Source: a virus | Virus record (IMG/VR): IMGVR_UViG_3300034198_017386 | Span: 1-41,886 of that record | DNA length: 41,886 nucleotides | Direction: 5' to 3' (one strand) | Shown: positions 12,564 to 28,941 of the stretch, one piece after another | How the letters are laid out: each line of letters opens with the position of its first letter | Position numbering within the stretch: the stretch's first letter is position 1 | The notes under the pieces: generated by a model | Database searches by the model: none | What the model was told of the DNA's origin: nothing | What the model saw: only the letters and a program-made list of their open reading frames with translations | Made by a program: the position numbers and the translations under genes

Positions 12564-13169
12564 ATGTCTCCTGACAATTTCGCGCCATTCTTCGGTCTGA
12601 CTTCGGACCAAATGGCCCTACTGGATGAACAGGGCCTAGCTGATGCTATCAAGCTGGAGGCCATGACTCGCGGGATCCTGATCCCGGTCACCCTAAAAGA
12701 GGCTATTCAGACAAGCGGCTTCACTGGCTATATGGCCTCCCCGGAGGATCAGCATTTTTATTGCGTGAAAGGTCCCGAATATGGCGATACGGTCGGATAT
12801 TTGACGGAAGATGCGGCAAAGTCAGCGCTTGAGGGTTCGGCGGTGTTTCGTGATACCTACGTTGGAGGCGGCTCGCGCAAGGTCTTGGCTGATCGTCAGC
12901 CAACGATTGAGCGCGTCACTATCCCTGGCCGGAAGTTTGCGCTTTCGGTAAAAGCCTTAGAGCCCTACTTTAACGATGCCGATTCCGAGGAATTTGCCAA
13001 GCTTCAGAAGGAATGTATCACTGCCTATGAAGCAAACAATCGAGACAGATACAATGCCGCTGCAGCCAAGGAGCGGAAGCAAGAATACATTCGCCTGGCC
13101 GGTGGTGACACTGAGATCGCCAAGGCTTTTTGGCTAAAGACCGAACGGCTTGAATGGCCCGCCGACTGA
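12564..13169 (+). CDS. Hypothetical protein
   Basis: A 201-residue protein of no recognised family and the last gene of the plus-strand late block. The middle is beta-rich (SGFTGYMASPEDQHFYCVKG, YLTEDAAKSALEG) and the C-terminal third is charged and helical (YEANNRDRYNAAAAKERKQE). Its stop codon lies a single base from the stop of the opposing minus-strand gene, with no room for a terminator between the convergent units, so transcripts must overlap here. A structural or lysis-related role is possible from position only. Confidence 0.7.
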   Translation: MSPDNFAPFFGLTSDQMALLDEQGLADAIKLEAMTRGILIPVTLKEAIQTSGFTGYMASPEDQHFYCVKGPEYGDTVGYLTEDAAKSALEGSAVFRDTYVGGGSRKVLADRQPTIERVTIPGRKFALSVKALEPYFNDADSEEFAKLQKECITAYEANNRDRYNAAAAKERKQEYIRLAGGDTEIAKAFWLKTERLEWPAD

Positions 13170-13170
13170 T

Positions 13171-13374
13171 TTACTGTTTGGCTTTTGCCGTCCAGATAAA
13201 GGCCGCTTTTTCGATCCACGGGTAAGCCAGGACCCAAGCCTTCTCAATTCCCCTGAGGCGTCTATCGTCCTTGGGGGTTTTTGTATTGTTGACAATGATT
13301 GCCGCGAGAGTGTGAATAGCGGTCGCTGCGGCAACGAAGTCAGGACTGGTGAGAAAGTCAAGAGTGTTTTTCAT
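13171..13374 (-). CDS. Small holin-like / lysis-region protein
   Basis: A 67-residue protein at the end of the minus-strand block, after the tail fibre, where T7 encodes its holin (gp17.5). It has a moderately hydrophobic segment at about 12-30 (DFVAAATAIHTLAAIIVNN), a charged centre (TKTPKDDRRLRG) and an amphipathic end ending in KAKQ. The ATG overlaps the stop of the gene before it by 4 bases. Holin or holin partner is inferred from position, size and hydrophobicity; no family motif is seen. Confidence 0.55.
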   Translation of the reverse strand: MKNTLDFLTSPDFVAAATAIHTLAAIIVNNTKTPKDDRRLRGIEKAWVLAYPWIEKAAFIWTAKAKQ

Positions 13375-13619
13375 TTTTTTTGAGTTTCAAGATTGCGGAC
13401 ACGGGTGTCAAGCTGACCAATGGCCTCTGACTGGAGAGCATCTACCTTGGCTGATATTCCAAGGATGCCTTTCAATTCTGCTTGACCATCACGAAGATTA
13501 AGTACGCCAGCAATAAGCCCGATCAGGGCTGCCGCGATAATTGTTGAGGCTGCCTGCTGGATCATCTCAAAGAAACGGCTTGTGCCGTTGGGCGTAGCGA
13601 CCATGGCGGGAATTGACAC
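13371..13619 (-). CDS. Single-span membrane protein, candidate holin or spanin
   Basis: An 82-residue protein with one clear transmembrane helix at about 23-43 (AASTIIAAALIGLIAGVLNL) followed by a coiled-coil C-terminus (KVDALQSEAIGQLDTRVRNLE). This is a class II/III holin-like or inner-membrane spanin-like topology. It is 18 bases downstream of the tail fibre gene and overlaps the next gene by 4 bases, forming a lysis pair. The function is inferred from topology and position. Confidence 0.6.
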   Translation of the reverse strand: MSIPAMVATPNGTSRFFEMIQQAASTIIAAALIGLIAGVLNLRDGQAELKGILGISAKVDALQSEAIGQLDTRVRNLETQKK

Positions 13620-13637
13620 TGATCAACTGTATCAGCC

Positions 13638-15950
13638 TCAAATACCAGTGTCGTAAATCCTGGCCGTGCTCAGCGTCACGGTGCCCGAGTTGACGACTTG
13701 CCAGTAGTGCCAAGGCGGCACAAGGGCGAACAAGCATTGGTCGCTTGCGCTGGGGCCGTCGTTGGCCTGCCTGCCGATCTCCGTAACAGTTGATGAAGCC
13801 CCCACGCGCAAGGACGAAGACGCCCCGGAGGCCAGGTTCGCCGTATAGCCGACCGCCACGGTTCTGCCGGTAGTATTTTGATAGACCGTGCCAGCGGTGA
13901 TGGACTGACTGACAGGCAGAAGCGTGGACCCTGGAGGTGCGCATTTGACGAAGTTTCCGTTACCAGAGTTGGCGTTGATCGTGACTGCCGCACCAGATAA
14001 GACGTTATTGCCGATCTCAACTTGGTTGAAAAAGGCACCGCCGCCACCGCCGCCAGTACCGGCAGCGTCCTGAATGAAGACCGTTCCCTCAAGGAAGCCC
14101 AGATAGATTCTGTTATAGCTGCCGAAAATCTCTACACTTTTTCCGCCAGACGCGGCAGGCTCAACAGCATTGACAAAAATATAATTACTTGTGGTGTTAT
14201 TGTAGACGCCCCCGGCTTCATCTATTTTTAGATTCTTAAAGTTGCTATTGAGAGACTGTATGTTGATATTGAGAGCTTGCGCAGCCGCCAGGGATGGGTC
14301 CTTACTCCGCGTCCTCACGCCATAGCTGCAATAGCCAATCTCCCCAAGCAGAATGTCATTCTGCTGGAAGTGGGCATCATAGCCCAGCACGGCAGCGCCG
14401 GCACAGTTCACGAAGACACCGGCCCCCTTGAACGCCTGTATCTCATCGACCCTAAACCTGCTCATCTGTGCGGCCCGAAACTCAATACCATTGGCGCCGT
14501 CTGGGAACTCTGCCGTAGGGGCCGACGCCCAGCCATCATTAGCGCCACCCACGGTATGTCTAAGCCCTGCAAAATGCAGGTCATAGCCCTTGTTCCTCCC
14601 AGCGGAAGGGGCGGTATTGCCGACAACGACTGCGCTGCCAGAGGTGGCGTTGTAGTTGATAAAAGATAAAAACTGAATATGGCAAGGCTTATCAAGCGTG
14701 AGAGGGGCAGTAGTCCTAAAGTTAAATCCTGAGGGGGCAAATAACTTCCTGAATGGCCCTTGTGTTACCGTCCCTTGCTGTGCCCAATCGAAGGCCAACT
14801 GAAGACCAGCCGTGTCGTTGTTCACACCGTCTCCGACGACCCCGGAAAAATCAAAAACACTTCGAGAGTTGGAGGGAACAAGGTATCGAGAGTCTGGGTC
14901 TATCGCGCTGTAGTCGATCCACTGCCAGGTAGTACCGACAGACAAGTAAAGAAGCCTGACGCTTAGGCGACTGCTGCCAACAAAGCCAGACGGTCTGCCG
15001 GTCAAGGGGGCAAACGATTCGATCCCTGTGCTGTTTGCGATCTCAATTCTGCTTCCGTTGGATGGGGAAGCAGGAATAGCCGCGACGTTGGCAACGGCAA
15101 GGTATTGAGTGGCGATCCCGCTCTGTATCCCGGCAACAGTTGTCGAAAGCGACGCGACAGACGCCTGAGCAACAATCGCCGCGTCATAGGCCGTCTTCGC
15201 AGCCTTTGCCGAAGCGGGATCAGTAGCGCTAGAACTTAAGACAGAATCAACAACCTGGGTCTTAAGCAGGTAGCGCAAGTCAGCGTTGATTGGCCTGTAA
15301 TCGACCCACTGCCAGGTGGCCAGGCCCACGCTGTATCGAATGCGGACGATCAGGGAGCTTGACCCGACGAAGCCCGAGGGCACCCCGGTAAGAGGGGTAA
15401 AAGTCTGCATGTTGGTAGAGTCCAGCACCTCGCCGCCGATTGCCGACCCCGGATTGGCTGGCACGTTGGCCCTGGCCGCGTACAGCGTGTAGGGGAGCTG
15501 GCTGGCGACCGTGGCCAGAACCTGACTGGACTGTGCCGCCGTGTCGCTGGCCAGGGTGGCCGCAGCGGCGTTGGCCTCGACTGCCTCTTGAACAATGTAG
15601 AGGTTGGCAAGCTGAAGGTTTCTTAGCCTCTCAGCCGGAAGGTTGATCCCGTCAGGAATGTCAGTCAGAAGCGCAGTGATCGGCGTAATGCGCCTGATGA
15701 TCACTGACTCATTTAAGACGGTGGGGACGACAAGGGTTATCTGGGTTCTTGCCGTATTGAACTCCCACTGAGCAGGTCGAAACCGCTCGATCAATGTTGC
15801 CCCGTTGTCAAGTGTCGTATAGACCTTGACGTGAGATGGATCGACAAAACCTATTGCGCTGCCGCCAGCCGTTGTGAGATTAAAGGTGGTAGTGCCCACA
15901 GAGGGGGCTGTATAAACGGCCCCGGAATACGTGTAGGAAGGTAGCGGCAT
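13638..15950 (-). CDS. T7 gp17-like tail fibre / tailspike protein
   Basis: A 770-residue protein. Residues 1-130 follow the T7 tail-fibre N-terminal domain that attaches to the tail (TTFNLTTAGGSAIGFVDPSH, VIIRRITPITALLTDIPDG, LNLQLANLYIVQEAVEAN). Two copies of a domain of about 75 residues follow (about 152-229 and 282-357), each ending in TWQW(V/I)DY plus RYL. A parallel beta-helix region starts near 365 with FDFSGVVGDGVNNDTAGLQL, typical of pectate-lyase-like tailspikes. The beta-helix probably binds or cleaves a surface polysaccharide of the host. The gene is on the minus strand, opposite the other tail genes. Confidence 0.9.
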   Translation of the reverse strand: MPLPSYTYSGAVYTAPSVGTTTFNLTTAGGSAIGFVDPSHVKVYTTLDNGATLIERFRPAQWEFNTARTQITLVVPTVLNESVIIRRITPITALLTDIPDGINLPAERLRNLQLANLYIVQEAVEANAAAATLASDTAAQSSQVLATVASQLPYTLYAARANVPANPGSAIGGEVLDSTNMQTFTPLTGVPSGFVGSSSLIVRIRYSVGLATWQWVDYRPINADLRYLLKTQVVDSVLSSSATDPASAKAAKTAYDAAIVAQASVASLSTTVAGIQSGIATQYLAVANVAAIPASPSNGSRIEIANSTGIESFAPLTGRPSGFVGSSRLSVRLLYLSVGTTWQWIDYSAIDPDSRYLVPSNSRSVFDFSGVVGDGVNNDTAGLQLAFDWAQQGTVTQGPFRKLFAPSGFNFRTTAPLTLDKPCHIQFLSFINYNATSGSAVVVGNTAPSAGRNKGYDLHFAGLRHTVGGANDGWASAPTAEFPDGANGIEFRAAQMSRFRVDEIQAFKGAGVFVNCAGAAVLGYDAHFQQNDILLGEIGYCSYGVRTRSKDPSLAAAQALNINIQSLNSNFKNLKIDEAGGVYNNTTSNYIFVNAVEPAASGGKSVEIFGSYNRIYLGFLEGTVFIQDAAGTGGGGGGAFFNQVEIGNNVLSGAAVTINANSGNGNFVKCAPPGSTLLPVSQSITAGTVYQNTTGRTVAVGYTANLASGASSSLRVGASSTVTEIGRQANDGPSASDQCLFALVPPWHYWQVVNSGTVTLSTARIYDTGI

Positions 15951-15991
15951 GGCGGCAAAATAAGCCTTGCCAATTCTGGCATATTCCCGCC

Positions 15992-18817
15992 CTAGTCCTC
16001 GCCTCGCGCTGCCCTGAATAGAAGATCAATCGCTTTGTTCGCCTCTTGCGCTCCCGCTAAATCATTCTGCTTGAGCAATGCTTTTCGCGCTTCCCCTAAC
16101 GTGTATCGCCTGGCCACGTCGCTGTTATCGTTCAATAACTGATGCAACGCAATTTGATAGTATTCGTTAATGCGGGCATCAAGGTCGGTAACGATCTTCG
16201 TTTTAAGGTTGCTGCGAACAAGTGCCCTATTTTTAATAAGCTCTTGCACGTCGGCCCGCCTTTCGTAACTGCTGATGAACTGGGCCACCGTTTGACCGTC
16301 AATCTTGGCATTGGCCATGTAGCCGTTTAGCTGTTGCTGTTCGGCGTTGGTAAGCTTTACAAGATTGATGTCGGGCCGTTTCTCCGTGTAAGAGCCCTTG
16401 ATTCTGTAAAGGGCTGACCACGGGCCACTTTCGCCTGACGTTGTGCGAGGCAAAAAGGGAATGGCCATTTGCAAAGGGTTCATCCCATTGGGCCCGTAGC
16501 CGGGAACGATCGGAACTGGCTGCCCAGTGATCTGATCAATCATCACGGGCGCCTTTCCGACGCCAGGCAGCCTGTCATTCAACTTGGCAAAAATGCTCCC
16601 GTAGAAGTCTTCGTGCATTCTCATTGCCTCGATAGGGGTTGCACCGCCATAGGCGTGTTTATACGGATCCTCGATGCGTCGGACATAATTCAACATTCCG
16701 CCAAAGGGGGTCTGGGTCGAAAGCCAATTCTGGACAGCGCGAGTCGTCTTGGGTCCATTCGCCGAGTTAGGATCGCTGATGACTTGCATAACGTCATTCA
16801 ACCCTTGGAGGAATGACGCCTGATACAAACCAGACGCCACGATCCCAGCAAAGCCCGCCATCCATTCTTCCTGGCTTGCATAGTTGGCGTAAGATGAATA
16901 CATCCCAATGTCAGACACCATCCGAAGAACAATGGCGATCGGCTCCCCAAAGCGATCGAATGGAATACTTACGCCACCGATGTTAATTGAGTATTTTGAT
17001 TTATCATTTTCTTGCAGCCACTTTTCAAAAGCAATCTGGCCGGGGGTGCCCCCACCCTGCTTCTGCGACCACCGGCCAGGGCCACCACCGATAATTGTGC
17101 CATTCATAACCCCGGCATACATCACGGCAGCGGCAGTCGTTGTCAGGGCGATCTGACCGCCGATCCTGAATGTCTCGCCGGGGTCTTCAAGCATCTTCTT
17201 TTGAAGCGCCAACAGCGTTGCGGTTGGGTTGCCCCCGTGTTCTACCAGCGTGGATGCAGCATTAAGCGCGGCGCCAAGCCCGGCAGACTCGACAAACCCT
17301 TGCTTGAGAATGTTTAGGGGGGTTCTGACAAATGGGATAAAAGGCTTCAGCATTGGGCCGATAACCGGAACCGCCAACGCTTGATTAACCTTATTGGCCC
17401 ACGCGTTATCCTCCTGGAATGTTGCCCGGTCAGCCTCGGCCATGATCCCATTTTCCAGGTCATAGATCGACTTGAGCCGCCATTTAGCCTCAGGTGGATC
17501 GCCGGGATTATGCAGGTTGAAGGCCAGCTCGGCTTCCTGCTTCATGTAAGCCTCAAGGGCGCTTTTATCTGTCAGGTCTACCCCGTTGTCCATCGCCCGC
17601 TTTATGGCCCTGGAAGCAACTTCCCCCCTGACCGTAATGTGCTTGGCAAACTCATCAGTCCCAAGCAGCGCACGGCTGGGAAGCCTGACAATCTTTCCAA
17701 TCATGTCCAGGGTACTTGCAAACCCATCCTCAAGCGGGGCCTTTCCCTGCTGGGCAAGCAATGCGTTTAGGGATTCAGACGAAATACCGGGCGTCACCTT
17801 GGCCTGATAGATTGAACTTTCAGAGCTGAAGGCTTTAGCCCCCAGGTGCCAAGCGTCAGCCCACGCACCGTTAATGGCCTGCAATGAAGCCGCCGCTTCT
17901 GCCGCTGCCTGCATGGCCGTCTTGGCGCCTGGCAGCCCTAGCGCCGCGTAAGAGCTTGCTGCTCCATACTGAATGATTGGCCTTGCGATCGACCAGCCGA
18001 TACCCGCAGCGTTGGCCGCGAATGTCGCCGGACCTGAAAGAAGGCCATTTTTGAACACTTCTTCCCAGGCGTTCCCCGCAATCTGAATACCAGTTGACAC
18101 TTTGGCGATCTTTACTGGATCATCCAGGAACTCAACGCGACGGGCCAGCCCGATAAGTTCGTTGATCCCTTCGTTCAGGGAAGCTGGATCATTCATCTTT
18201 TCGGCAATGGACTGGAAAATATCGTTGTAGTTCCCCAACCTTGCCGCTTCCTCTGCGCCGACCTGAGCTGCCTTCTCGGCGGAGCGGGTAACCCTCAGCC
18301 CTAAGTCGCGCTGGTTGGCAACGGCTCGACCCATCTGCTGATCCCATCCCAGCACAAAACCACCAAACCGGCTTGTGTGGCTCATCTGCTTAGCGAAGGC
18401 AAGCCCCTCGTTAAGTGCGTCCTCGCCATTCTTGACCTTAAGGAGAAAGTTACTCGCCATCTGCCGTGTTGCCACGGCGGTAGACATAAGGTATGTCTTG
18501 GTAACCCTCGCCGCCAAGGCCACTTGCTCAGGGTTAAGCTTGGCCGACGCCTTGTATTGGGGCGATCCACCAGCGGCAGCCTTGGCCTTGACGATCCCCT
18601 GTTTCTCGTAATACTTAAGCAGGTCGTCAAACCCAAAGGGGAGTATCTCTTTCAGGACACCAATCGCCTTGGCCTGAAACTCAGCACGTCCGCCCTGCCT
18701 GACTTCCGTATAAAGCCCGCTTTCCTCTGCCTGCTTAACCGCAGCGCCGATGCTCTCATCCGCCCGCTCCGATGCAGTGATGAAGTGTGGGGGTTCCCAG
18801 GGTGAGCAGGTAGCCAT
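15992..18817 (-). CDS. gp16-like internal virion protein, downstream half
   Basis: A 941-residue protein that follows the gp16-like gene at once: its ATG overlaps the previous stop as TGATG (minus strand, 18815-18819). The sequence is Ala-rich and mostly helical, with several hydrophobic segments (GLLSGPATFAANAAGIGWSI, QIALTTTAAAVMYAGVMNG, GFAGIVASGLYQASFLQGL) suited to a membrane-crossing ejection protein. Together with the preceding gene it would make about 2,000 residues, compared with 1,318 for T7 gp16. It is either a genuine two-gene version of gp16 or one protein made through coupling or frameshifting. The assignment is by position and character rather than by motifs. Confidence 0.7.
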   Translation of the reverse strand: MATCSPWEPPHFITASERADESIGAAVKQAEESGLYTEVRQGGRAEFQAKAIGVLKEILPFGFDDLLKYYEKQGIVKAKAAAGGSPQYKASAKLNPEQVALAARVTKTYLMSTAVATRQMASNFLLKVKNGEDALNEGLAFAKQMSHTSRFGGFVLGWDQQMGRAVANQRDLGLRVTRSAEKAAQVGAEEAARLGNYNDIFQSIAEKMNDPASLNEGINELIGLARRVEFLDDPVKIAKVSTGIQIAGNAWEEVFKNGLLSGPATFAANAAGIGWSIARPIIQYGAASSYAALGLPGAKTAMQAAAEAAASLQAINGAWADAWHLGAKAFSSESSIYQAKVTPGISSESLNALLAQQGKAPLEDGFASTLDMIGKIVRLPSRALLGTDEFAKHITVRGEVASRAIKRAMDNGVDLTDKSALEAYMKQEAELAFNLHNPGDPPEAKWRLKSIYDLENGIMAEADRATFQEDNAWANKVNQALAVPVIGPMLKPFIPFVRTPLNILKQGFVESAGLGAALNAASTLVEHGGNPTATLLALQKKMLEDPGETFRIGGQIALTTTAAAVMYAGVMNGTIIGGGPGRWSQKQGGGTPGQIAFEKWLQENDKSKYSINIGGVSIPFDRFGEPIAIVLRMVSDIGMYSSYANYASQEEWMAGFAGIVASGLYQASFLQGLNDVMQVISDPNSANGPKTTRAVQNWLSTQTPFGGMLNYVRRIEDPYKHAYGGATPIEAMRMHEDFYGSIFAKLNDRLPGVGKAPVMIDQITGQPVPIVPGYGPNGMNPLQMAIPFLPRTTSGESGPWSALYRIKGSYTEKRPDINLVKLTNAEQQQLNGYMANAKIDGQTVAQFISSYERRADVQELIKNRALVRSNLKTKIVTDLDARINEYYQIALHQLLNDNSDVARRYTLGEARKALLKQNDLAGAQEANKAIDLLFRAARGED

Positions 18818-21800
18818 CAGAGGTAATCGCAGAACTCGCCGTGTTTGTCGAATTGATCGACATTTGACAATAGGTCATCCACCGCTTTTTGTTCCCTGGC
18901 CAGTGGCGTCAGGTCAACAATCTGGCGATCAATTTTCTCGATCACGGCCCGGACAGATCGCAATGCCGAACCTGTAACCTCCCCGGCGTCGATCCGCTTT
19001 TGCAACACTTCAGCCAAGCCCTGCATTTGTTGCTGAGTAAGCTCAAAAGTGCGCTTCATCGGAAGCATGTCATTAACGTTATCGAAGCCGGAATCGCCAG
19101 AATTGCGAGATGCAATCCAGGCATCATCAAGCATCTTTTGGAGTTCAGGCGATGCGCCACGGATGGCCGCGCCTTGAGCTTCCGTAATGTTGAGCTTGCC
19201 GGTAACCTTATTGTCAATCCGCAAAGCAACGTCACTTGATACGGGTACGTCCTGCCCGTCCTTAAGCATTTGTCTTGCGCGGCTTGTCAGCTCATCTTTG
19301 AAGCGGGCGTTTTCCTTCTCCGCGAACTGATCAGCTTTTTGCTTTGTCGGGAACCTTGACGGGTTCAACCGCTCCCCGTTGCGGTCGATAACATTCCACC
19401 CACGGGACGTATCAGCCTTGGCGACACTTGCGGCGACTTGCTCATCAAGGTTTAGCCCAAGCATTTCCCTCACGATCACGCGAGGATCCTCCTTGCCGCT
19501 TAGCCTCATTCTCTCGGCAGCAGTCAGGCGGGCCGACTCTCTGGCGTCAAGGCTGTCAACTTGATCGGCTGCCGCCACGGCTTGACCGGCGGTATCGCGC
19601 TGGCCCTGCCTTGCCTCCCATTGGTCGTATGCCGCAATCGGATCAGTCTCAGCCGCTGCCACCCTCGCGGATTGCTCGGCGTCGATCGGCAAAGGGTTTT
19701 CCTGCTGCGCTGCGTTGAATGATTCGGGAATATCAACAGGGACCGGATCTTTCCCGAAATTCTGTAGTGCGTCAAACTCATCAAGAGCCTGGGCCTGCTT
19801 GGTTACCGCCTCGCCCCGATCAATCTCATAGGCCAACTTGCGATTAAACGTCATCTCAAACGTTTCGGGATCCACCCTGCCCCACCCTTCCGCAAGTGCC
19901 CTTTGACTGATGAAGTTTGACCAGACGCTATCGGCAGCAGGGATAACGCCCATGCTGTTACGCGTGACAGGGAACGTGGTCAGGTACTCAAGAGCGTCAA
20001 CCCTTGTCTTCGGCATTAGCCGCCTGACCCCCTCGCTCAGGGCTTCCAGGCTCCGCATAATGCCGTCACCCGTATCGCGGAACGTCAGGGAGGCCGCGTC
20101 CTTCCACGCTCGATAAGCGTCCCGCTCAAAGCCAGCACGGATTGTCTGGGGGGTGACGACCGCCGCCGGGGGCCTGGGGACGGCAGCGCCCAGATCCTCA
20201 ACTCTGACCGGCTCGACAGGGGGAGCAGCCGCCGGGGGGCCACCCGCGCCAAGCAGACCGGCAGGATCAGCGCCAGGGGCCTTTGCCTCGGGACTGCTGC
20301 CAGGGGGGAGCGCAGTTGGCCCCTCGATCGGCTTGGAGACATCGGAAACGGCTACCGGCTCGATCCGGCCATCGACAGGAAGGCCGCCTGTACCGATTGG
20401 CCTTGCAAGTGCCCCCGGCTCAGTTGCCAGCAAGCCAGGGGCCGCCGGGGGGCCGCCGGGTTGCCCCAGCCAGGCCGCGTAACGAGCGTCGTCGGGGTTG
20501 ATCGGGCTTGCCGCCCCTGCCTTCGCTGCCAGCGCCGCCTGCACGGGACTCGCCGGGTCTGGGGCCGTGAAGGCCGACGCAAGATCGGTCGGAGCGGAAG
20601 CGGCGGCAGCGGCGGCCTGTTGCCTGGCCTGCTGATACTGCAACAGATCGTCAATCCCAAACGCACTTTTGGGAGGGGGGACATAGGCCGGCTTCGTGGG
20701 ATCAATGGCGGATGCCTTGCCCTCCTTTACCGCCAGCCACTGCTGAACGGGACTCTCCGCGTCAATGCCCGCCGCCAGTTGACGCCCCAGCGAATCGCCA
20801 ATGTCCTGAGCGGACGCACCAAAGGCGCTAAGGATTTGCGCCTGCTCAGTTGGCTTGGCCTTCTTAAACGCTTGAGCAAACTTGTATGTCCTGTAAGTGT
20901 CAATTAGGCCATTCAAAGCGGCGCCCATCGCCAGCCCCTCGACCATCTGCTTTGTCTTTCTCGCCCAATTACTGTCTTCTGCTTCCGTCATGAGGCCGGG
21001 GATGACAGGTAGCCCCATGTCAAACATTGCGTCCGACAACGTGGCGTCCATCTCCCGATCGCCCTCCCCAAACACGTTGAAGGAGACAAACGCATCCCAG
21101 GCCAGCGCTTGACCAACAGTACGAATTTTCTGAGCCGCCGATCCTTTGCCGGCTAATTGTGTAAAGCCTCTCAGCCCCTGCTGTGCGCTATCAGCCCAAT
21201 TAGCAAAGCCTTTCAAGTCATCCGCACCAGCCGTAGCCTTTGCGACTTCAGCCAGGGGCATCGCCAGCCAATCGTTACGGGCTACTCTCGATGCAGCCTT
21301 GGCGCCAGAACTCCCCTTGATAAATGACTTGCTCAGGGCTTCCATGGACTTTGTTAAGTCCGTGGCCTCATCGGTCTTGCCGATCCCCTTCAGGAAGTCC
21401 TCTGCCTTAAGGATGAATTTGCCGATACCATCTGATGCCTCGGCGGCGGTGCCAAGAAGTTTGGCCTTGCCTGCGACCTGGAAAGGCAAGGCTGCGCCCT
21501 TGAATGCCAGCTTTGGAAGCGTGGCCAGCGCAACACCAATGCGCACAACCGTATTAACCTGCTTCCCGATCTCAGTCTCAGGAGCAAATGTATTCCTTCG
21601 CCATTGCGTCCACGGATTGTCGGCATCGTTAAATATGTTATCAGTCTCAAACCCTTTGCCCCTGACCGCATCGAACGTTTCTCCGGCCACGTCACCCAGG
21701 CCGGCAATAATGTCCCCAAACTCAGTCAGAAGACTAACGCCAGCATTGGCCGCGACTTTCCCAATCTCAGATACGGCCTGGCCGGGGCTATTGGCAATCA

Positions 21801-22005
21801 ATGGCCGTTCAGGCTCGACCGTTGCGGCCTGATCCATCTGTTGCTTGAATTGCTGATCGCGCTCTGTCTGAAGTCGCTTGACCAGTAATTCCTCAGGATT
21901 TACCCCGTACTGATCAACGATCGGCGCTTGTGGTGCCGCCTCAGTCGTCTTGAGGGGATCATCATAAATGTATCCGCCCGTTTTGGGGTCGTAACGGTAT
22001 GGCAT
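18817..22005 (-). CDS. gp16-like internal virion protein, upstream half
   Basis: A 1062-residue protein between the gp15-like gene (2 bases away) and its apparent second half. The N-terminus (MPYRYDPKTGGYIYDDP) is followed by Ala/Gly-rich helical segments. A Pro/Ala/Gly-rich linker region lies at roughly 430-620 and a charged helical C-terminus follows. I see no clear lytic transglycosylase motif, which T7 gp16 carries at its N-terminus. Internal virion protein is inferred from its size, its place in the gp15-gp16-gp17 order and its composition. The GC-rich linker produces long open frames on the opposite strand, which are shadows. Confidence 0.7.
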   Translation of the reverse strand: MPYRYDPKTGGYIYDDPLKTTEAAPQAPIVDQYGVNPEELLVKRLQTERDQQFKQQMDQAATVEPERPLIANSPGQAVSEIGKVAANAGVSLLTEFGDIIAGLGDVAGETFDAVRGKGFETDNIFNDADNPWTQWRRNTFAPETEIGKQVNTVVRIGVALATLPKLAFKGAALPFQVAGKAKLLGTAAEASDGIGKFILKAEDFLKGIGKTDEATDLTKSMEALSKSFIKGSSGAKAASRVARNDWLAMPLAEVAKATAGADDLKGFANWADSAQQGLRGFTQLAGKGSAAQKIRTVGQALAWDAFVSFNVFGEGDREMDATLSDAMFDMGLPVIPGLMTEAEDSNWARKTKQMVEGLAMGAALNGLIDTYRTYKFAQAFKKAKPTEQAQILSAFGASAQDIGDSLGRQLAAGIDAESPVQQWLAVKEGKASAIDPTKPAYVPPPKSAFGIDDLLQYQQARQQAAAAAASAPTDLASAFTAPDPASPVQAALAAKAGAASPINPDDARYAAWLGQPGGPPAAPGLLATEPGALARPIGTGGLPVDGRIEPVAVSDVSKPIEGPTALPPGSSPEAKAPGADPAGLLGAGGPPAAAPPVEPVRVEDLGAAVPRPPAAVVTPQTIRAGFERDAYRAWKDAASLTFRDTGDGIMRSLEALSEGVRRLMPKTRVDALEYLTTFPVTRNSMGVIPAADSVWSNFISQRALAEGWGRVDPETFEMTFNRKLAYEIDRGEAVTKQAQALDEFDALQNFGKDPVPVDIPESFNAAQQENPLPIDAEQSARVAAAETDPIAAYDQWEARQGQRDTAGQAVAAADQVDSLDARESARLTAAERMRLSGKEDPRVIVREMLGLNLDEQVAASVAKADTSRGWNVIDRNGERLNPSRFPTKQKADQFAEKENARFKDELTSRARQMLKDGQDVPVSSDVALRIDNKVTGKLNITEAQGAAIRGASPELQKMLDDAWIASRNSGDSGFDNVNDMLPMKRTFELTQQQMQGLAEVLQKRIDAGEVTGSALRSVRAVIEKIDRQIVDLTPLAREQKAVDDLLSNVDQFDKHGEFCDYL

Positions 22006-22007
22006 GG

Positions 22008-24902
22008 CTAAACACCTCCCAAACGGGCCTTGTAGTCAAACGTTCCCGCCCTGCTCCGCTGATCCTGCAACATGCGAGGGTAGGGCCATACTGCGGCCCA
22101 CCTGCCATTTGGGAGATAAAAAGAGTCAGCCCTGGCCTTGGCGATAGATTCAATAGTTAGCCCCTCCTGTTTCATGCGAGGCAGCTTCGCAAGGAAGTCG
22201 GCAGCGGCGGCGGGAGCCTGCACGGACAAGTCCAGGTAGTTAAACAAGACACGGTTAAACCCAGCCGTGCCCTGCTGCACTCCCCTCGATACAATGAATG
22301 GCGTTGCGGACAGGGCCTGCTGGGTCAACTTGCCGGCCCAGATCCTGTCAACGACCTGGGGAGAGCCGCCCCCGCCCCTTCGGCCACCACCTGACACGGT
22401 GCCGACATTCTTGTTTCCATCAGCAGGGTCAACATGCCCAAAATAGTTCTTGGTATAACCGCCATTAGCAGTACGCGTTCCCTCGTTAATGCCGATGGCC
22501 ACAAAGAACGGGTGCTTATCGCTTGAGATGGCCAACGGAACCGGGGCAGCAGGCGCATTGGCCGGCACCTGGGGAAGCGGCCCCTCTCGCAATGGGATGG
22601 GCTTGGGGTTCCCGCCACTCCAATCTCTATACAACGTGTTGAGGCGCGGCATTTTGTCTTCATAGGAGACAGGCTGTGGGCCACTACTGGCGTATGCGGG
22701 AGGCGCAATCACCCCTATAGCGGCATTCAAAAGGCCATTGCCAACCGCCTTCCCCATGTCAGCGATCGACGACTGCCTTGCCGGCTGTGCGCTTGCCTGC
22801 TTGAGGCCCACGCCTTTTGCGCCAGGCAAGCCCATGGGCGGCGGGTATTTATCAATCAAGGATTCAACACCTTGCAGGCTTATTCCCGGCGGTCTGCCAT
22901 TGGCAGGATCGGCCAACTGCCCACCCGGCTGTGCCCTCTTGATCATCTGCCGCCATTCTTTACCGGGATCGCTGAATGCCTTTGTTTTGCCGTCCGTCTC
23001 ATAAATGCCGCCGATACGCTTTAGCGTAAATTCCGTCATCTTCCTAACGTCGTTTGTTGGAACGCCATTCCTTTTTGCGTCGTCAACAATCGACTTGGGG
23101 AAGGTGGAGAGCGAAACCCTGCCTCCGCTCTTAATTAGATTTTGCTGAATCTGGCCAAGCTCTGCCCCCCTCTGCTGCTGCACGGTGCGCTGAGCGGGGA
23201 CAACTGTATTGAGCTGCCTGAAACGGGCGGCCCTTACAGCGTCAAGCTCATTCCTGAAAATGTCATTAGCCATATCCGAAGTGATCGGCTTCCCGTCTTT
23301 CCGAAGATTGCGGATACGGACTTCCGTGTTCTCGGTCGCCTGGACGATGACTCCATTCGTGGTATCCCTAATGGCCTGCTCCCGGTAAGCGGCGTCATTC
23401 TTAATCCTGGGGTCAAGGTTGGCCCTTCCGGCAATCAACTGAGCTACAGTCTCCTGGATCTGCGGAGTGTTATACGCCCTGGCACTGGCAACGGTGCGAG
23501 TAATCAAGTCTTTCCCCTCTGCTTTTTGCACCATGTCAATCTTCAATCTATCTGGCAGTCTTGTGTCAGCAAGCAATTTTTTATTGATTGCCCCAATGTC
23601 GGCGCCCTCGGCCTGATAGTCTACTTTGTATTGAAGCAGCAAGCGCTCCTGCTCAGGAGTAACTTTTTTACCCATGGATTCAAGCTGGCCCTGCAACTGA
23701 AACAGCAAATTGAACTGCTCTTGGTTTTCTGCAAGTGCCGGCAGCTTCCTGCCAAGTTCGGCAAGAGCGTCTTGGTCGCCCCTGATTATCGGGCCGATCA
23801 ACGGCCTTATCTCTTGATAATTTTGCTTGGCTTTAGCCTCCTCCCTTTTTGGCTCAAGATCGCTCAACATGACCAAAATCGAGTTCATCAAAGTTGTCCC
23901 ATCAGCCGCAACAGGAATGTCATAAAGTTTGCCGCCCGTAGGGGTAAGTATCTCTTTGCTGTCCAGTGACTTGCCAACAAAGCTCAAAAAGGCCAATGCC
24001 TCATCGTATTTTTTGTCATTCTTCAATTCTTGATACACGCTTCTGAGGCCCTGAAATATGACCTTGGCGGCTTGAGCTGCCGTGTACTTATCCTTCAAAC
24101 CTTCGTACCAGTTGGCCACAAACGAAAGATTGCCCTCTCTCCTGGTCTTCATGCTTGCCGCGTCAGCGGGAAATGCGGTCAGCTCCCGCCTTCTGAGATC
24201 GACTTCCTCAAGGGCAAGGTTTCGGCCTGTACGGGCAAGGTTGAGACCCTGTACGTTGTCGTAATAATCCCCATAGTCCTTGTCCTGCTGTGAGCGGACG
24301 CCATTAAAAACAAGGGATTCACCCTTCAGCAACTGAGGCGCAAAAGCCCCCCTGTATTCAGGCGCAATGTTGCCAAGCCCGCTTTCCTTTAGGGCCTTTT
24401 CCTTGATGACGGAAAATCCCTTCGCGTTCCTTTCCGCGTATTGCTCAGGCGTCTCAGTGTCTGCCTTTGGGTTTTTTAGAAGTGGCTCAAGGGCTGAATG
24501 CCTGGCCAGCGACTGGACATAATCATCTGTTGCAGTTGCGGCCATGCCGGTCTGCAACATGTCTTGAGCCCGTGGGCTGAGCCGCTTGACCATCCCAAGA
24601 ACCGCCTTGTCGCCACTGCGAACGGCCCCTTGCATGTCAACAGAGTCGGTCAGCTCCCCTACTTGCTTTTGTCCCTGCCGGATTGTTAGAGGCTCAAGGA
24701 CTTTGGGGACAACGTTGATAATCCCATCGAGAAATCCTTTGAAATCAGCAGCGGGGTTGGGGCCTGTCCCAAGATTGGCGATTCGCAAGCTGCCGTCAGG
24801 AGTCTTGGAGACAACCTGACGCGGCGCAGCTTCGGGCTCATTGGGCTTGGCAACCGGCGCAAACGCGTTGACGGTGCTTGTTTGCGGCCTTGAATAGGTC
24901 AC
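22008..24902 (-). CDS. gp15-like internal virion protein with possible hydrolase-like C-terminus
   Basis: A 964-residue protein, first of the large minus-strand genes, starting with GTG at 24902. Most of it is helical and charged like T7 gp15 (747 residues), a tube component of the periplasmic ejection conduit. The C-terminal 180 residues contain FFVAIGINEGTRTANGGYTK followed by YFGHVDP (about 795-825). This has the look of a small peptidoglycan-degrading or lysozyme-like fold with Glu as catalyst, but I cannot name the family. If so, the wall-cutting function of T7 gp16 may have moved to this protein. A Pro-rich linker (about 745-790) separates the two parts. Confidence 0.75.
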   Translation of the reverse strand: MTYSRPQTSTVNAFAPVAKPNEPEAAPRQVVSKTPDGSLRIANLGTGPNPAADFKGFLDGIINVVPKVLEPLTIRQGQKQVGELTDSVDMQGAVRSGDKAVLGMVKRLSPRAQDMLQTGMAATATDDYVQSLARHSALEPLLKNPKADTETPEQYAERNAKGFSVIKEKALKESGLGNIAPEYRGAFAPQLLKGESLVFNGVRSQQDKDYGDYYDNVQGLNLARTGRNLALEEVDLRRRELTAFPADAASMKTRREGNLSFVANWYEGLKDKYTAAQAAKVIFQGLRSVYQELKNDKKYDEALAFLSFVGKSLDSKEILTPTGGKLYDIPVAADGTTLMNSILVMLSDLEPKREEAKAKQNYQEIRPLIGPIIRGDQDALAELGRKLPALAENQEQFNLLFQLQGQLESMGKKVTPEQERLLLQYKVDYQAEGADIGAINKKLLADTRLPDRLKIDMVQKAEGKDLITRTVASARAYNTPQIQETVAQLIAGRANLDPRIKNDAAYREQAIRDTTNGVIVQATENTEVRIRNLRKDGKPITSDMANDIFRNELDAVRAARFRQLNTVVPAQRTVQQQRGAELGQIQQNLIKSGGRVSLSTFPKSIVDDAKRNGVPTNDVRKMTEFTLKRIGGIYETDGKTKAFSDPGKEWRQMIKRAQPGGQLADPANGRPPGISLQGVESLIDKYPPPMGLPGAKGVGLKQASAQPARQSSIADMGKAVGNGLLNAAIGVIAPPAYASSGPQPVSYEDKMPRLNTLYRDWSGGNPKPIPLREGPLPQVPANAPAAPVPLAISSDKHPFFVAIGINEGTRTANGGYTKNYFGHVDPADGNKNVGTVSGGGRRGGGGSPQVVDRIWAGKLTQQALSATPFIVSRGVQQGTAGFNRVLFNYLDLSVQAPAAAADFLAKLPRMKQEGLTIESIAKARADSFYLPNGRWAAVWPYPRMLQDQRSRAGTFDYKARLGGV

Positions 24903-24908
24903 TGACTA

Positions 24909-24959
24909 TCAGCAGCTTTTTTTGCCGCCGCCTTTTCCGCCCTTTCCTGATTTTGCCAT
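24909..24959 (-). CDS. Tiny Gly/Lys-rich peptide ORF
   Basis: A 16-codon frame, MAKSGKGGKGGGKKSC, ends in TGA directly followed in frame by TAG, 6 bases before the GTG of the gp15-like gene. Its ATG lies in one arm of the 24955-24999 palindrome, in exactly the same local sequence as the start of the divergent small terminase gene. A leader peptide coupled to gp15, a small basic DNA-binding peptide, or chance are all possible. Only the symmetry and the double stop support it. Confidence 0.35.
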   Translation of the reverse strand: MAKSGKGGKGGGKKSC

Positions 24960-24999
24960 GGTTGAATGGGTGCAATTCACGACACCATTCAACCATGGC
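24955..24999. promoter_or_regulatory. Perfect 15-bp inverted repeat at divergent gene starts
   Basis: GCCATGGTTGAATGG (24955-24969) is the exact reverse complement of 24985-24999, with a 15-nt spacer. Each arm holds an ATG: the minus-strand tiny ORF starts at 24959 and the plus-strand small terminase at 24995, so both genes have the same CCATTCAACCATGGC start region. It could be an operator for a dimeric regulator, an RNA hairpin hiding both start codons, or a two-way promoter spacer. Confidence 0.7.
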
Positions 25000-25312
25000 C
25001 ACCGACGATACGGAGGACTGGTGGGGGACACCGACAGACCCAAACCCTCACAGCTCACCCGAGGAAAGCGGCAGGGCTGACGACAGCACAATGAGCGATC
25101 TTCATGGCCAAACGGCCCATGAGATCAGCCGTTTCCTGAAGTACGGAACGCCACGGGCCAAGCTGGCCGCCATCGACAAGGCGATTAAGTTCCTGAAAGA
25201 CAACAGCATCACCACAACCCTTGGCCGCAGCAAGGGCCTACAAAAGGTCGCTGACGCATTGCCGTCAGTAGAAGACCTTGAGGCGCTTATGCGTCTCACC
25301 CCTGACAACTAA
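24995..25312 (+). CDS. Probable terminase small subunit (gp18-like)
   Basis: A 105-residue acidic protein. The N-terminal third is polar (TDDTEDWWGTPTDPNPHSSP). The rest is helical, with KLAAIDKAIKFLKDNSITTT, resembling the segment xxDLxxARxFLKDNxI common to small terminases of T7-like phages. It lies next to the large terminase as in T7 (gp18/gp19), but the two genes face each other with a structural-type gene between. I chose the ATG at 24995, which lies in the right arm of the palindrome; the longer frame from 24878 runs back over the gp15 start. Confidence 0.7.
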   Translation: MATDDTEDWWGTPTDPNPHSSPEESGRADDSTMSDLHGQTAHEISRFLKYGTPRAKLAAIDKAIKFLKDNSITTTLGRSKGLQKVADALPSVEDLEALMRLTPDN

Positions 25313-25332
25313 TCCCCTCGCACGTTCAAGCC

Positions 25333-25740
25333 ATGCCCAACACGGACACACCCCCCAGCCCGTTGCCCGCCGATTACAAAATTGAGGTAGGGGCCGCCGG
25401 GTCGCCTCTTTTTTCTGCCACAGTGGAGAGCGCCGCCTCAGTAAATGCAACACTCGTAAAAGCATCCCCCGGAGACGTTTACGAAATCTCCCTAACGAAT
25501 TACTCTGCTGCCGCTAAGTTCTTTAAGTTCTACGACAAGGCATCTGCGCCAACAGTCGGGACTGACACCCCCTGCTTAACCATTGCGCTTGCGGCGAACT
25601 CTGAAAAAGTATATGGGTTTGGCAGCTTTGGGAAAAGGTTTGCCCGAGGCATTGCCTATGCGATCACCAACCTTCAGTCGGTTGCGGACGCAACAGCCGT
25701 TGGGGCCGATGATGTTGTCGGGGCATTCTCATACATCTAA
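25333..25740 (+). CDS. Putative small structural (decoration-like) protein
   Basis: A 135-residue beta-rich protein with segments SATVESAASVNATLVKASPG, YEISLTNYSAAAKFFKFYDK and LTIALAANSEKVYGFGSFGK. This pattern is frequent in small phage structural proteins with an Ig- or jelly-roll-like fold, such as head decoration or fibre accessory proteins, but I cannot name a specific family. It follows the small terminase by 20 bases. Its stop overlaps the stop of the convergent large terminase gene by 3 bases, leaving no terminator. The structural role is inferred. Confidence 0.6.
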   Translation: MPNTDTPPSPLPADYKIEVGAAGSPLFSATVESAASVNATLVKASPGDVYEISLTNYSAAAKFFKFYDKASAPTVGTDTPCLTIALAANSEKVYGFGSFGKRFARGIAYAITNLQSVADATAVGADDVVGAFSYI

Positions 25741-27497
25741 TTATCAAGCCATCCTTGCCCACCAATGTCACTGGCAGCGGCTTTCCTTGCCTGCTCCAGT
25801 GACATACCCATAGCAAGGCGAGTTGCATTCAATACTGAATACCCCGTCGAGTCTTCCACCTGGGCGGCCAGCCATTCATTGTAACGCTCATTGGCCGATC
25901 GCTCTTGGTCTTGAGCTACCTGCCCCTGGAAGAACTCAACCCCAAGGGCGACAACATCTAATCGGTCGTAATGCCTTAGGCTTCCCCGCGCTTCGGTGAT
26001 TCTGCTGAACTGATAGACAAAGCTGTAAGCGCAATCACTTTCGTCTTCAGCTTCAGTAATGATCCTGGCGTCATCCTCAATAATGCGACGATCAACAATT
26101 AGGGAGTGCAGCTGGACAACGGGAGCAAGCGTGTCAATGATCCTTAGGTCTTTGTAGCTTCCGCCGGTTCTAATTCCCTCAAAGGCCATGGGATAGCCGG
26201 CCTTCTGAAAAAATGGCTTGCCGGCCTGCTCCCACACGGCCAGGCCCCCGAAGTTGCTTTCAACCAAGACCCGCTTGGCCTGCATCCGTTTCGCCAGCAG
26301 AGCAAGCTCCATCCACAGGGCCTCACTGGACCCCCCACGACGGCCCCCGAGCGCTCTCAGGTAGAAGTTGCCGCCCCAGGCCGACAGGACGCACCAGGCG
26401 AACTCATCGGTACCGCCTCCAGAGGGGTCGATCACCAGGACGGTTGGGACCTCCGCAACGTTGATCGTCCCCTTGATGAAAGACGGCATGTAGAACGTAT
26501 CGTCGTCACCAATGCCGGCGCAGTGAAGGTCGGTGATCCTGTAATCCCTGCTTCTTTCGTACAGCAAGACTTCCGGGAGATCATCGTCTAATGTCGAGAC
26601 GACCAGATCCCTGCACTTAAGGGGATGCTTTTCCGCATCGCTCTGAGTAGGGTCCAACATGAACTGAAGACGCCACCTGGCCGGCGCCATCCTTAATTGC
26701 TTTTGCGTCAGCATGTCTTCACTGAAGCGCGTATCCGTGGGCCTTCCTGCATCGGTGCCCATTCGCCTCTCAATCAAAGGCGCCAACAGCCCCCGATAAG
26801 GCTTGGAGTCACTGGGAACCCTTGCGGGCCACATCCTCATATCGTAGTTGCGCTGTCTGTTGAGGAAAAAGTAAATGGACTCAACAGATGCGTGAGGTGT
26901 GCCCAGATAGAAAATATCGCAAGCCTGATCAGGCTTAATAATTGACTCAGCCTCATCGATACCAGTCCTTAGACGATCACGCTGTAATTGCGTCAAGCAA
27001 GTCTGTGGTGTTTCAACGTCATCCAAGATGATCTTGCTTGCCCGTGATCCGACCACCTGTCCGTAAATACCGGCAGCCCTTACCGAAGGGCTTTGTTCAA
27101 TAAACGTACATGCCCCAACGTCAAACTCAATGTTGGAATATCGACCATTCTTGGTATCAGGCCGCAAGTGCTCCAGCCATTCAACAGTGCGGATGGTAGT
27201 CAGCATCCATGTCGTTATCTTCTTGGCGAAACCACCTGACGCACTAATGAAAAGAAGTTTCTCATTGGGGTTTTCATCAAGCCACCAGATACCAGTAGTG
27301 GCAGTTAAGAACGACTTCCCTAACCCACGAAAACCGCAGATGATCTTTCTTGAGCCAGTAGCCGCTTTCTCTGGATCGCTTGAAACTTCAGCAATGTACG
27401 CCAACACCTGCAGCTGAATTGGCGTCAGGTTATCGGCCATCCGTAATTCACGGATTAGCTTCGTTGCAAACTGAGGAAGTGATAGCCCCAGCGACAT
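25737..27497 (-). CDS. T7 gp19-like terminase large subunit
   Basis: A 586-residue protein matching T7 gp19 (586). The ATPase part has Walker A GFRGLGKS (55-62) and Walker B IILDDVE (156-162). The nuclease part has VLVIDPSGGGTDE with Asp357, VLVESNFGG (about 411-418) and a C-terminal YDRLDVVALGVE aspartate. It drives DNA into the procapsid and cuts concatemers. It is on the minus strand, facing the small terminase, whereas in T7 both genes are co-directional. The ATG at 27497 touches the end of the upstream small gene. Confidence 0.95.
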   Translation of the reverse strand: MSLGLSLPQFATKLIRELRMADNLTPIQLQVLAYIAEVSSDPEKAATGSRKIICGFRGLGKSFLTATTGIWWLDENPNEKLLFISASGGFAKKITTWMLTTIRTVEWLEHLRPDTKNGRYSNIEFDVGACTFIEQSPSVRAAGIYGQVVGSRASKIILDDVETPQTCLTQLQRDRLRTGIDEAESIIKPDQACDIFYLGTPHASVESIYFFLNRQRNYDMRMWPARVPSDSKPYRGLLAPLIERRMGTDAGRPTDTRFSEDMLTQKQLRMAPARWRLQFMLDPTQSDAEKHPLKCRDLVVSTLDDDLPEVLLYERSRDYRITDLHCAGIGDDDTFYMPSFIKGTINVAEVPTVLVIDPSGGGTDEFAWCVLSAWGGNFYLRALGGRRGGSSEALWMELALLAKRMQAKRVLVESNFGGLAVWEQAGKPFFQKAGYPMAFEGIRTGGSYKDLRIIDTLAPVVQLHSLIVDRRIIEDDARIITEAEDESDCAYSFVYQFSRITEARGSLRHYDRLDVVALGVEFFQGQVAQDQERSANERYNEWLAAQVEDSTGYSVLNATRLAMGMSLEQARKAAASDIGGQGWLDN

Positions 27498-27721
27498 TAA
27501 AGATACCTGCGTCTTGAGTAAACCGACATTCCTGCCTTGGCCACCTTCTTGGCCTTTGCCGCTTGTTTATCAATCCTTGCTTGTTCCGCAGCATCAGCTT
27601 TTGCCTCTGCCGCTTGCCTCATCAGTTCAACAGTCTCCCGATAGCCAGGCGGATCAGGCCAGTTGGGCTTGTAAGGGGCTCCAGTCTTGCCAGTCCCTTG
27701 CGCATCCATGGCAGCGATCAA
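27497..27721 (-). CDS. Small hypothetical protein upstream of terminase
   Basis: A 74-residue basic protein, Lys/Ala-rich, mostly helical (ETVELMRQAAEAKADAAEQA) with an SVYSRRRYL end. It is the first gene of the minus-strand unit leading to the large terminase, and its last base is the first base of the terminase ATG. The ATG at 27721 or at 27709 could serve. No family is recognised. T7-like phages often carry a small gene next to terminase (such as gp18.5/18.7), but no spanin features are visible here. Confidence 0.6.
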   Translation of the reverse strand: MIAAMDAQGTGKTGAPYKPNWPDPPGYRETVELMRQAAEAKADAAEQARIDKQAAKAKKVAKAGMSVYSRRRYL

Positions 27722-27763
27722 CCCTCATCGGATGTCAACAGTAGCCCATGCGGGCTTTCAACC

Positions 27764-27772
27764 TGTGGAAAA
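27764..27772 (-). promoter_or_regulatory. DnaA-box match TTTTCCACA
   Basis: TGTGGAAAA on the plus strand reads TTTTCCACA on the minus strand, a form of the DnaA box found in cyanobacterial origins. It is the only one I found in this region, and it stands about 110 bases before an AT-rich stretch. A single 9-mer can occur by chance; it gains weight only from the nearby iteron-like arrays and the missing phage polymerase. Confidence 0.3.
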
Positions 27773-28006
27773 CCCTTGTTTCCCTCCTACAGAAGAAGGG
27801 GGAGTGTATCAACAGGAACCAAAAGGGCCAAGATCGCAGTCAACACAAAGCGAGCGAAGCGAGCGCCTTATTAAAGACTAATCATCACAAAACGGTCAAA
27901 GGAGCGAAGCGACTATTAATTACTATCAATCAACATCATCCCAATAGGTTGAATAGCAACTATGTTGAATCGCATAGTAGGTTTCATTCTTTACCCGTCT
28001 TGCTCC

Positions 28007-28019
28007 AAGGAGGTGATTA
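28007..28019 (+). promoter_or_regulatory. Perfect Shine-Dalgarno sequence without a gene
   Basis: AAGGAGGTGATTA is fully complementary to the 3' end of bacterial 16S rRNA over at least ten bases. No ATG, GTG or TTG frame of useful length starts within the usual distance; in-frame stops follow quickly. A 9-bp hairpin begins 2 bases later. It could be a relic of a lost gene, a ribosome standby or decoy site, or chance. Confidence 0.4.
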
Positions 28020-28020
28020 G

Positions 28021-28049
28021 GAAGGATTAGTAGACACGTTTAATCCTTC
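28021..28049. other. 9-bp hairpin
   Basis: GAAGGATTA (28021-28029) pairs exactly with TAATCCTTC (28041-28049) around an 11-nt loop. No T-run follows on either strand, so it is not a standard terminator. It directly follows the orphan Shine-Dalgarno sequence and could affect access to it if transcribed. Confidence 0.5.
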
Positions 28050-28137
28050 GGAAAGCTAAGTAATAATTAGTGTGCGGTGCATTTGTGTTTGTTGGTGATG
28101 GTGTGATGTGGGTCTTGCTGGTTGAGACCGTGAGGGG

Positions 28138-28248
28138 GATGGGTCAGTGGTTGGCATTTACCTTTTGGTCTGCTAATTGATGAGGGGGCTTATGGAAGAT
28201 GGGTCAGTGTTCGGCATTTACCTTTTGGTCTGCTAATTGATGAGGGGG
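28138..28248. repeat. 51-bp direct repeat, two copies with 60-bp period
   Basis: Copies at 28138-28188 and 28198-28248 share 49 of 51 bases (differences at 28150/28210 and 28152/28212). They include GGCATTTACCTTTTGGTCTG and end in TGAGGGGG; a partial TGAGGGGG also precedes the first copy at 28131. The repeats are not coding in a sensible frame. The 60-bp period and position upstream of the early genes fit a binding-site or promoter duplication. Confidence 0.9.
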
Positions 28249-28301
28249 TATACGTAATGCGTCACGGGCGAGTGTCCCCCGTGCCGGTCCTTTATATGGG
28301 C

Positions 28302-28395
28302 GTTGCACGGGCCATTGCGCCGCAAGGGATTGGAACGGATACCTAATCCGTCGCCGTGCAACAGCGCTAAAGACGGGCGCTGAGAATGGTTCTCA
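28302..28395. other. Nested hairpin cluster
   Basis: GTTGCACGG (28302-28310) pairs exactly with CCGTGCAAC (28354-28362). Inside it ACGGAT (28335-28340) pairs with ATCCGT (28346-28351). Just outside, TGAGAA (28381-28386) pairs with TTCTCA (28390-28395). The series looks like a structured RNA or a cruciform-forming control site. It is not a tRNA: no T-loop or acceptor pattern is present. Confidence 0.55.
28311..28351. repeat. Composite motif, copy 1 (shared with 34561-34600)
   Basis: GCCATTGCGC, a 13-nt gap, AACGGAT, a 5-nt gap and ATCCGT. The same parts in the same order and almost the same spacing occur directly upstream of the RNA polymerase gene at 34561-34600. Conservation of both the fixed 10-mer and the small hairpin in two non-coding places suggests a protein-binding or RNA element. 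Confidence 0.6.
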
Positions 28396-28424
28396 TTCCC
28401 ATTTAAGTAGTACGTTTGTTCTCC

Positions 28425-28540
28425 ACTACCCACCGCCGCTTAGCACTACTACCCACCGCCGCTTATCCCTACTTCCCACCACTACCTAACACTTACTGCC
28501 CACCATCGGTTATCACTATCACCCACAAAGAACAAGCACG
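28425..28540. repeat. Degenerate 23-nt C/A-rich tandem array (iteron-like)
   Basis: Five successive units of 23-24 nt start at 28425, 28448, 28471, 28495 and 28518. The first two share ACTACCCACCGCCGCTTA exactly; later ones keep the AC(T)nCCCACC core and drift. Direct tandem units of this length, in a non-coding region, resemble replication iterons or clustered binding sites. The last unit is weak. Confidence 0.55.
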
Positions 28541-28674
28541 ATTGCTACTTACACATTCCCACCAATGCCTACCCGAATAGAACAAGCGTACTACCAAGAA
28601 AGGGGAGGGCAAGACGAAGTAAGAACGTTACTGATACGTGCTTACTATTATCTGTGCCAATAGGTCAAACGTAC

Positions 28675-28798
28675 TGATGAGGCTGGAGCCGATGAGGTGA
28701 TGAGGCTGGAGCCGATGAGGTGATGAGGCTGGAGCCGATGAGGTGATGAGGTTGGAGCCGATGAGGTGATGAGGCTGGAGCCGATGAGGTGATGAGGC
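28675..28798. repeat. Perfect 23-nt G/A-rich tandem array, five copies
   Basis: Units of 23 nt start at 28675, 28698, 28721, 28744 and 28767. Four are identical and the fourth has one C-to-T change; a partial sixth unit follows to 28798. Each unit contains TGATGAGGCTGGAGCC plus a second GATGAGG. The unit length is not a multiple of three, so it is not a coding repeat. It has the same period as the C/A-rich array 135 bases before it. Confidence 0.95.
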
Positions 28799-28920
28799 AG
28801 TGAGGGCCAGGAGGCGCAAGTCGCATAAGAAAGACTAATAACGACTGCGGCGCAAGCGGGGAGGCGTGGTCCTCATGCCGTCACTCTTGCCAGCCTGCAA
28901 CTGTTGCCCTAATGTCTTGA

Positions 28921-28941
28921 TCGACAGTCTGAGACTGTCTG
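28921..28941. promoter_or_regulatory. Inverted repeat / candidate phage promoter motif, copy 1
   Basis: GACAGTC and GACTGTC form a 7-bp inverted repeat around TGA (28923-28939). The element resembles 34468-34487 upstream of the RNA polymerase gene: 16 of the first 18 bases match, with the core GACAG(T/G)CTGAGACTGT. It lies about 20 bases upstream of the first early gene start, so a promoter or operator role is plausible. Confidence 0.45.

Follow-up and report, generated by a model that had tools for sequence, protein, structure and literature searches.

A Krakvirus-like Autographiviridae genome with a late region fixed in two directions

The genes of Autographiviridae are said to lie solely on one strand, and this is given as a trait of the family (PMC9145550). 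Syn5 and P-SSP7 (from their annotated records) and T7 (in the part examined) keep to one strand, and all carry a DNA polymerase. The one-strand layout of T7-like phages suits the view that the genome is drawn into the cell by transcription; in T7, rightward transcription is coupled to both genome entry and the timing of genes. Some public genomes depart from this layout. Krakvirus S39C11 (AP013549, uncultured phage MedDCM-OCT-S39-C11), a flipped genome public since around 2013 (Mizuno survey), has its early, replication and capsid genes on the plus strand, a block of fibre and internal-virion genes on the minus strand, TerS on the plus strand and TerL on the minus strand. The paper describing it (Mizuno 2013, PMC3861242) leaves the inversion unmentioned in its searchable text, as does the searchable text of Cai 2022 (PMC9860041). 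A published description of the inversion was not found in the literature searched, where the names Krakvirus and S39-C11 gave no match either; one may still exist. The Prochlorococcus phage P-SCSP1k, a polymerase-less cyanopodovirus (MPP-C), has a reversed TerL and no DNA polymerase. In the cultured freshwater Synechococcus phage S-SRP02, as in contig G033, TerL is reversed with TerS converging on it, an integrase is present and no PolA-type polymerase was detected.

Here, we compare these systems with a complete virus genome (IMG/VR record IMGVR_UViG_3300034198_017386), referred to as the window, by which we mean the whole 41,886-nt record and not only its flipped block. The window shares gene order and strands with AP013549, although TerL is 51% identical and the fibre genes differ. 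It resembles P-SCSP1k in the features named above, but there TerS is flipped together with TerL and the internal-virion genes are unflipped; S-SRP02 and G033 differ from the window in that their internal-virion and fibre genes run in the same direction as the capsid genes. In T7, Syn5 and P-SSP7 the virion module has the same genes in the same order. The genes are ordinary, and it is the architecture that is unusual and fixed. Both ends of the record carry the same 60-base exact repeat, as expected of a circularly closed assembly, and the genome is complete; it is that of a Krakvirus-like Autographiviridae member with a late region fixed in two directions. A T7-type terminase, a portal and the gp11/gp12 tail tube module are all present, while 13171-24902 and 25737-27497 lie on the opposite strand. 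Because the Krakvirus type record, which is classed in Autographiviridae, also breaks the one-strand rule, we take that trait as usual rather than defining.

From 28.96 kb on, the plus strand encodes an anti-restriction protein, an integrase (33433-34461), an RNA polymerase of the single-subunit, T7-type phage kind (34615-37044, phrog_414, E 1.3e-98), SSB, primase-helicase and exonuclease. It continues with the portal (2672-4288, phrog_449), scaffold (4493-5236, phrog_1052), capsid (5437-6681, phrog_267), gp11 (6739-7377, phrog_446) and gp12 (7380-9944, phrog_457), followed by genes without assigned identity up to 13169. The last of these is an ORF for 201 aa (12564-13169) with a 39% homolog in contig G008.

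The minus-strand block that follows (13171-24902, 11.7 kb, roughly a quarter of the genome) holds the injection machinery and the tail fibre in normal internal order, though reversed, and is flanked by the plus-strand gp8-gp12 genes and the plus-strand TerS. Its first large gene is IVP_A (22008-24902), followed by IVP_B (18817-22005), whose homologs in relatives also lie on the flipped strand. These two largest internal-virion genes gave no family match and are named as putative internal virion proteins from their position and their homologs in relatives. IVP_C (15992-18817, phrog_6651, E 2.2e-27) is gp16-like by position. The gp17-like tail fibre (13638-15950; phrog_32829, phrog_2710) has a PF03906 N-terminus (E 1.1e-5). 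Two small, putative lysis genes complete the block. The first (13371-13619, 82 aa) has no match in PHROG or Pfam profile searches and contains one hydrophobic segment (Kyte-Doolittle peak 2.1), as a holin- or spanin-like protein might. The second (13171-13374, 67 aa) has a hydrophobic N-terminal half and 39-45% homologs on the flipped strand of five relatives, and may be lysis-related. The head of the block, on the minus strand, carries a 16-codon Lys/Gly-rich ORF (MAKSGKGGKGGGKKSC, 24909-24959); of 11 clade genomes, 10 have a similar ORF in this position. Across the clade these low-complexity, putative peptides span 16-19 aa and frequently end in Cys or Tyr.

Beyond the divergent IVP_A/TerS gap (24903-24994) lie TerS (24995-25312, plus strand, PF11123, E 1.7e-8) and p135 (25333-25740, plus strand, 135 aa, with a 67% homolog at the same place in G001). 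The latter converges on TerL (25737-27497, minus strand; phrog_38, E 1.6e-65; PF22530, E 1.8e-21), which is preceded by a minus-strand gene for 74 aa (27497-27721; 49-51% homologs in G001, G008 and G025). The recomputed ORF coordinates and strands of the block match those of a preliminary description made from the sequence, and so do the two terminase genes that face each other. Its two tight convergent junctions were found as well: at 13170 a single base separates the ends of the two genes, and p135 and TerL share 4 bases at 25737-25740. Between TerL and the early genes, a noncoding region rich in direct repeats (27750-28960) is the likely physical genome end; the AP013549 fosmid terminates at the corresponding position. 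The repeats comprise a 60-bp direct repeat, a degenerate 23-bp repeat and a 23-bp tandem array of about six units (28138-28257, 28425-28517 and 28652-28821), and they may mark a genome end or an origin.

To place this layout, near homologs of TerL and gp12 were collected from viral contigs and their strands compared, the search of related contigs that the preliminary description had called for. In all 15 genomes that hold both genes and whose TerL is at least about 50% identical to that of the window (window included), gp12 lies opposite TerL. Around TerL, TerS was on the opposite strand at 44 of 44 loci and IVP_A on the same strand at 40 of 40, and the RNA polymerase and integrase genes were opposite TerL wherever present. 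The proposal that the late genes are flipped as a unit in normal relative order thus holds for every close relative checked, and the flipped layout is a fixed trait of a clade with dozens of uncultured relatives. In more distant contigs with both genes (TerL 35-38% identical), gp12 and TerL are co-directional in 10 of 10; T7-like genomes further away are mostly co-directional, and P-RSP2, Syn5, P-SSP7, Gjalp and ProddE essentially so. One contig with a clade TerL (51%) and the same flipped layout, NHDG01000124.1 (L152), is binned in the MAG Planctomycetia bacterium TMED53 and is probably phage DNA inside that bin.

How would such a genome be expressed? At the head of the block, a motif, (C/G)TTG(A/C)CAcCgTTCAA(C/G), points into the block in all eight relatives scored, where the IVP_A/TerS gap is short, divergent and carries this conserved word; since the motif was first noticed there, its presence at IVP_A is not independent evidence. 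Near-matches to the word number 58 in 11 genomes, compared with 0-1 in shuffles. A position matrix with a cut-off of 14 bits for strong sites finds 2-20 of them per contig (9-20 in complete or near-complete genomes) versus 0-2 in shuffles, and 90 of the 151 strong sites are intergenic or near gene edges, sequence that makes up 9-21% of each genome. With the matrix oriented by its own asymmetry and not by the genes, sites face SSB (9/9), IVP_A (8/8) and scaffold (3/3), a direction that rests on a modest asymmetry because the motif comes close to being a palindrome (TTG-N8-CAA). The sites at IVP_A therefore follow the flipped strand. Upstream of the RNA polymerase gene (5 to 4) and TerL (4 to 2), orientation is mixed. 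The motif is probably a promoter of the clade's phage RNA polymerase. As a hairpin, its outer arms showed no covariation; as a sigma-70 promoter, -10 boxes were seen in 12 of 86 cases (shuffles: mean 6.4, maximum 14); and against the Syn5 promoter (ATTGGGCACCCGTAA) it scored -9 bits ungapped, the two being alike only with gaps. Scans of the window for sigma-70 promoters and terminators gave nothing above shuffles. Counts of the motif in sister and outgroup genomes equal or come close to those in shuffles, the exception being P-SSP7, whose seven matches lie mostly within genes.

The motif could instead be a repressor operator or other regulatory site, with the flipped genes read from other, unrecognised promoters. 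Its near-palindromic form and mixed orientation near the RNA polymerase gene would suit an operator, as would the integrase, which makes temperate control possible. We consider this conceivable but rather unlikely, given the uniform orientation toward SSB, IVP_A and scaffold and the presence, at gene-cluster heads of complete or near-complete genomes, of a number of sites like that of T7 promoters.

Returning to the motif as a promoter, the window carries two copies head to head at the divergent centre, both below the cut-off. The one directed at the block (24958-24979, minus strand, 12.4 bits) has strong counterparts at the same place in eight relatives; the one directed at TerS (24975-24996, plus strand, 13.5 bits) touches the TerS start codon. 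Together they form a palindrome, CCATTCAACCATGGC, with perfect 15-bp arms, within which lie the TerS start codon and the beginning of the Lys/Gly-rich ORF. Another weak match (27721-27742, minus strand, 11.7 bits, below cut-off) lies upstream of TerL. The divergent gene starts that the preliminary description placed near 24.97 kb and at 27.7-29 kb do exist, and at the first the conserved directional motifs fit separate promoters. Late transcription may run from these centres, though it need not, and the collision of transcripts at 13170 and 25738 that the same description supposed is likewise conjectural. In the mechanism proposed here, the single-subunit phage RNA polymerase would transcribe the capsid genes rightward, starting at a number of sites. 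The motif at ~24.96 kb would serve for leftward reading of the flipped block and the site adjoining it for rightward reading of TerS, and TerL would be read leftward, beginning at the right end.

TerS and p135 might, however, depend on transcripts that pass rightward through the whole flipped block, yielding a long antisense RNA, rather than on a promoter of their own. No clear terminator was found at 13170 and the motif facing rightward at 24975-24996 scores low, which leaves read-through a possible if doubtful route; the contact of that motif with the TerS start codon and the conservation of the short divergent gap in relatives speak against it.

If the block is read from its own leftward promoter, the course of genome entry may bear on when its genes are expressed. 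In a linear genome, the block promoter would lie ~3-4 kb from the right end, if that end falls at 27.75-28.96 kb. With T7-type left-first entry, the block genes would therefore become available only after nearly all of the DNA has entered, and the internal virion proteins and the fibre would be delayed. A widespread clade that stably breaks the one-strand rule offers natural variants for testing whether one-way transcription is needed for entry, timing and replication.

A second feature of these genomes is the absence of a family-A DNA polymerase (PF00476), which was not found in the window, in 12 other clade genomes, or in S38C3, S37C6, S-SRP02, G033 and G034. The window retains a primase-helicase, SSB and exonuclease nonetheless. 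PF00476-type polymerases are present in T7, Syn5, P-SSP7, P-RSP2, ProddE, Gjalp and six distant contigs. All polymerase-less genomes examined have strand switches (small ones in P-SCSP2), and in polymerase-bearing genomes such switches are almost absent, apart from a few short genes reversed in P-RSP2. This is a correlation drawn from few independent events; the coincidence of the inversion with no detectable T7-type DNA polymerase hints at a testable connection. A more far-reaching account would have a T7-like lineage that lost its DNA polymerase freed from the one-strand rule and flipping large blocks repeatedly, every such block bearing its own promoter of a new phage-polymerase type; in the window's clade the flip would be a timing device, with injection proteins and fibre made only once the right end of the genome is inside the cell. 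We regard this as speculative and improbable as a whole. The window's clade is a second marine lineage resembling the DNA-polymerase-less MPP-C cyanopodoviruses, and other classed members of Autographiviridae also go without a T7-type DNA polymerase (PMC9860041). In S-SRP02 (L162), the gene annotated as 'DNA polymerase I' (22389-23129) matches 5'-3' exonuclease domains only, and the gene was apparently used in that phage's published phylogeny.

The TerL tree gives an outline of how the layout may have arisen. In this maximum-likelihood tree the window's clade has 100/100 support, as does the sister group of S38C3, S-SRP02, G033, S37C6 and G034. The window clusters with AP013549 (100/100), and the TerL identity of 51% suggests that the two are probably different genus-level branches within the Krakvirus-like clade. 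In S-SRP02 and G033 the gene order is canonical for T7-like phages, with all genes, or nearly all, on one strand except TerL, and TerS converges on TerL in S-SRP02 (PF11123) and G033 (tblastn). Their arrangement probably preceded the block flip, so that a before-flip relative is already cultured. Stopalavirus S38C3, Oinezvirus S37C6 and G034 resemble the window in that TerS faces TerL, but differ in what else is flipped: the early genes in S38C3, and the early and replication genes in S37C6, which G034 matches. The reversed segments, which include the integrase and early genes, span 1771-2064 and 35152-41582 in S38C3 (L101) and 18173-30666 in S37C6 (L103). That these two genomes carry different large reversed segments suggests repeated block inversions in this lineage.

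Because members of the sister group have canonical order with TerL alone flipped, the TerL flip is probably older than the block flip and ancestral to both groups. By parsimony, on which the order of the two flips is based, TerL would have turned before the block did, in the common ancestor of the window's clade and the S-SRP02/Stopalavirus/Oinezvirus group; the 11.7-kb block would then have been inverted a single time, on the stem leading to the Krakvirus-like clade, and kept, with other blocks flipping in the sisters. The terminase flip of P-SCSP1k is independent, since the TerL tree puts that phage outside the window's group. The preliminary description was therefore right about the flip; the single rearrangement of a single phage that it pictured is instead clade-wide and made of two rearrangements of different age, because TerL flipped apart from, and before, the block. 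Taken together, we are confident, short of certain, that the window is best explained as a Krakvirus-like Autographiviridae genome with a fixed two-directional late region, a two-step flip and the promoter mechanism proposed above.

Invertible fibre cassettes occur in other phages, and the block does contain a fibre gene, so that one might think of a phase-variable segment switching fibre or injection proteins on and off. This is highly improbable, as the block has the same orientation at all 40 loci and no inverted repeats above chance at its edges (the longest is 9 bp, compared with 9-11 typical at random). An assembly or binning artefact, the alternative named in the preliminary description, would leave the block inverted in this contig only; in its favour, the contig is metagenomic and its block had no megablast match among phage records. 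It is refuted to near certainty, because the contig closes into a circle and the same junction order recurs in many independent assemblies: 14 or more further genomes and 40+ loci share the layout exactly, including the fosmid-derived AP013549.

One further observation concerns the capsid gene (5437-6681). Residues ~147-234 of its product match tail-fibre and unknown-function PHROGs, not capsid families, and most relatives align only beyond residue 212. This stretch looks like an inserted surface domain.
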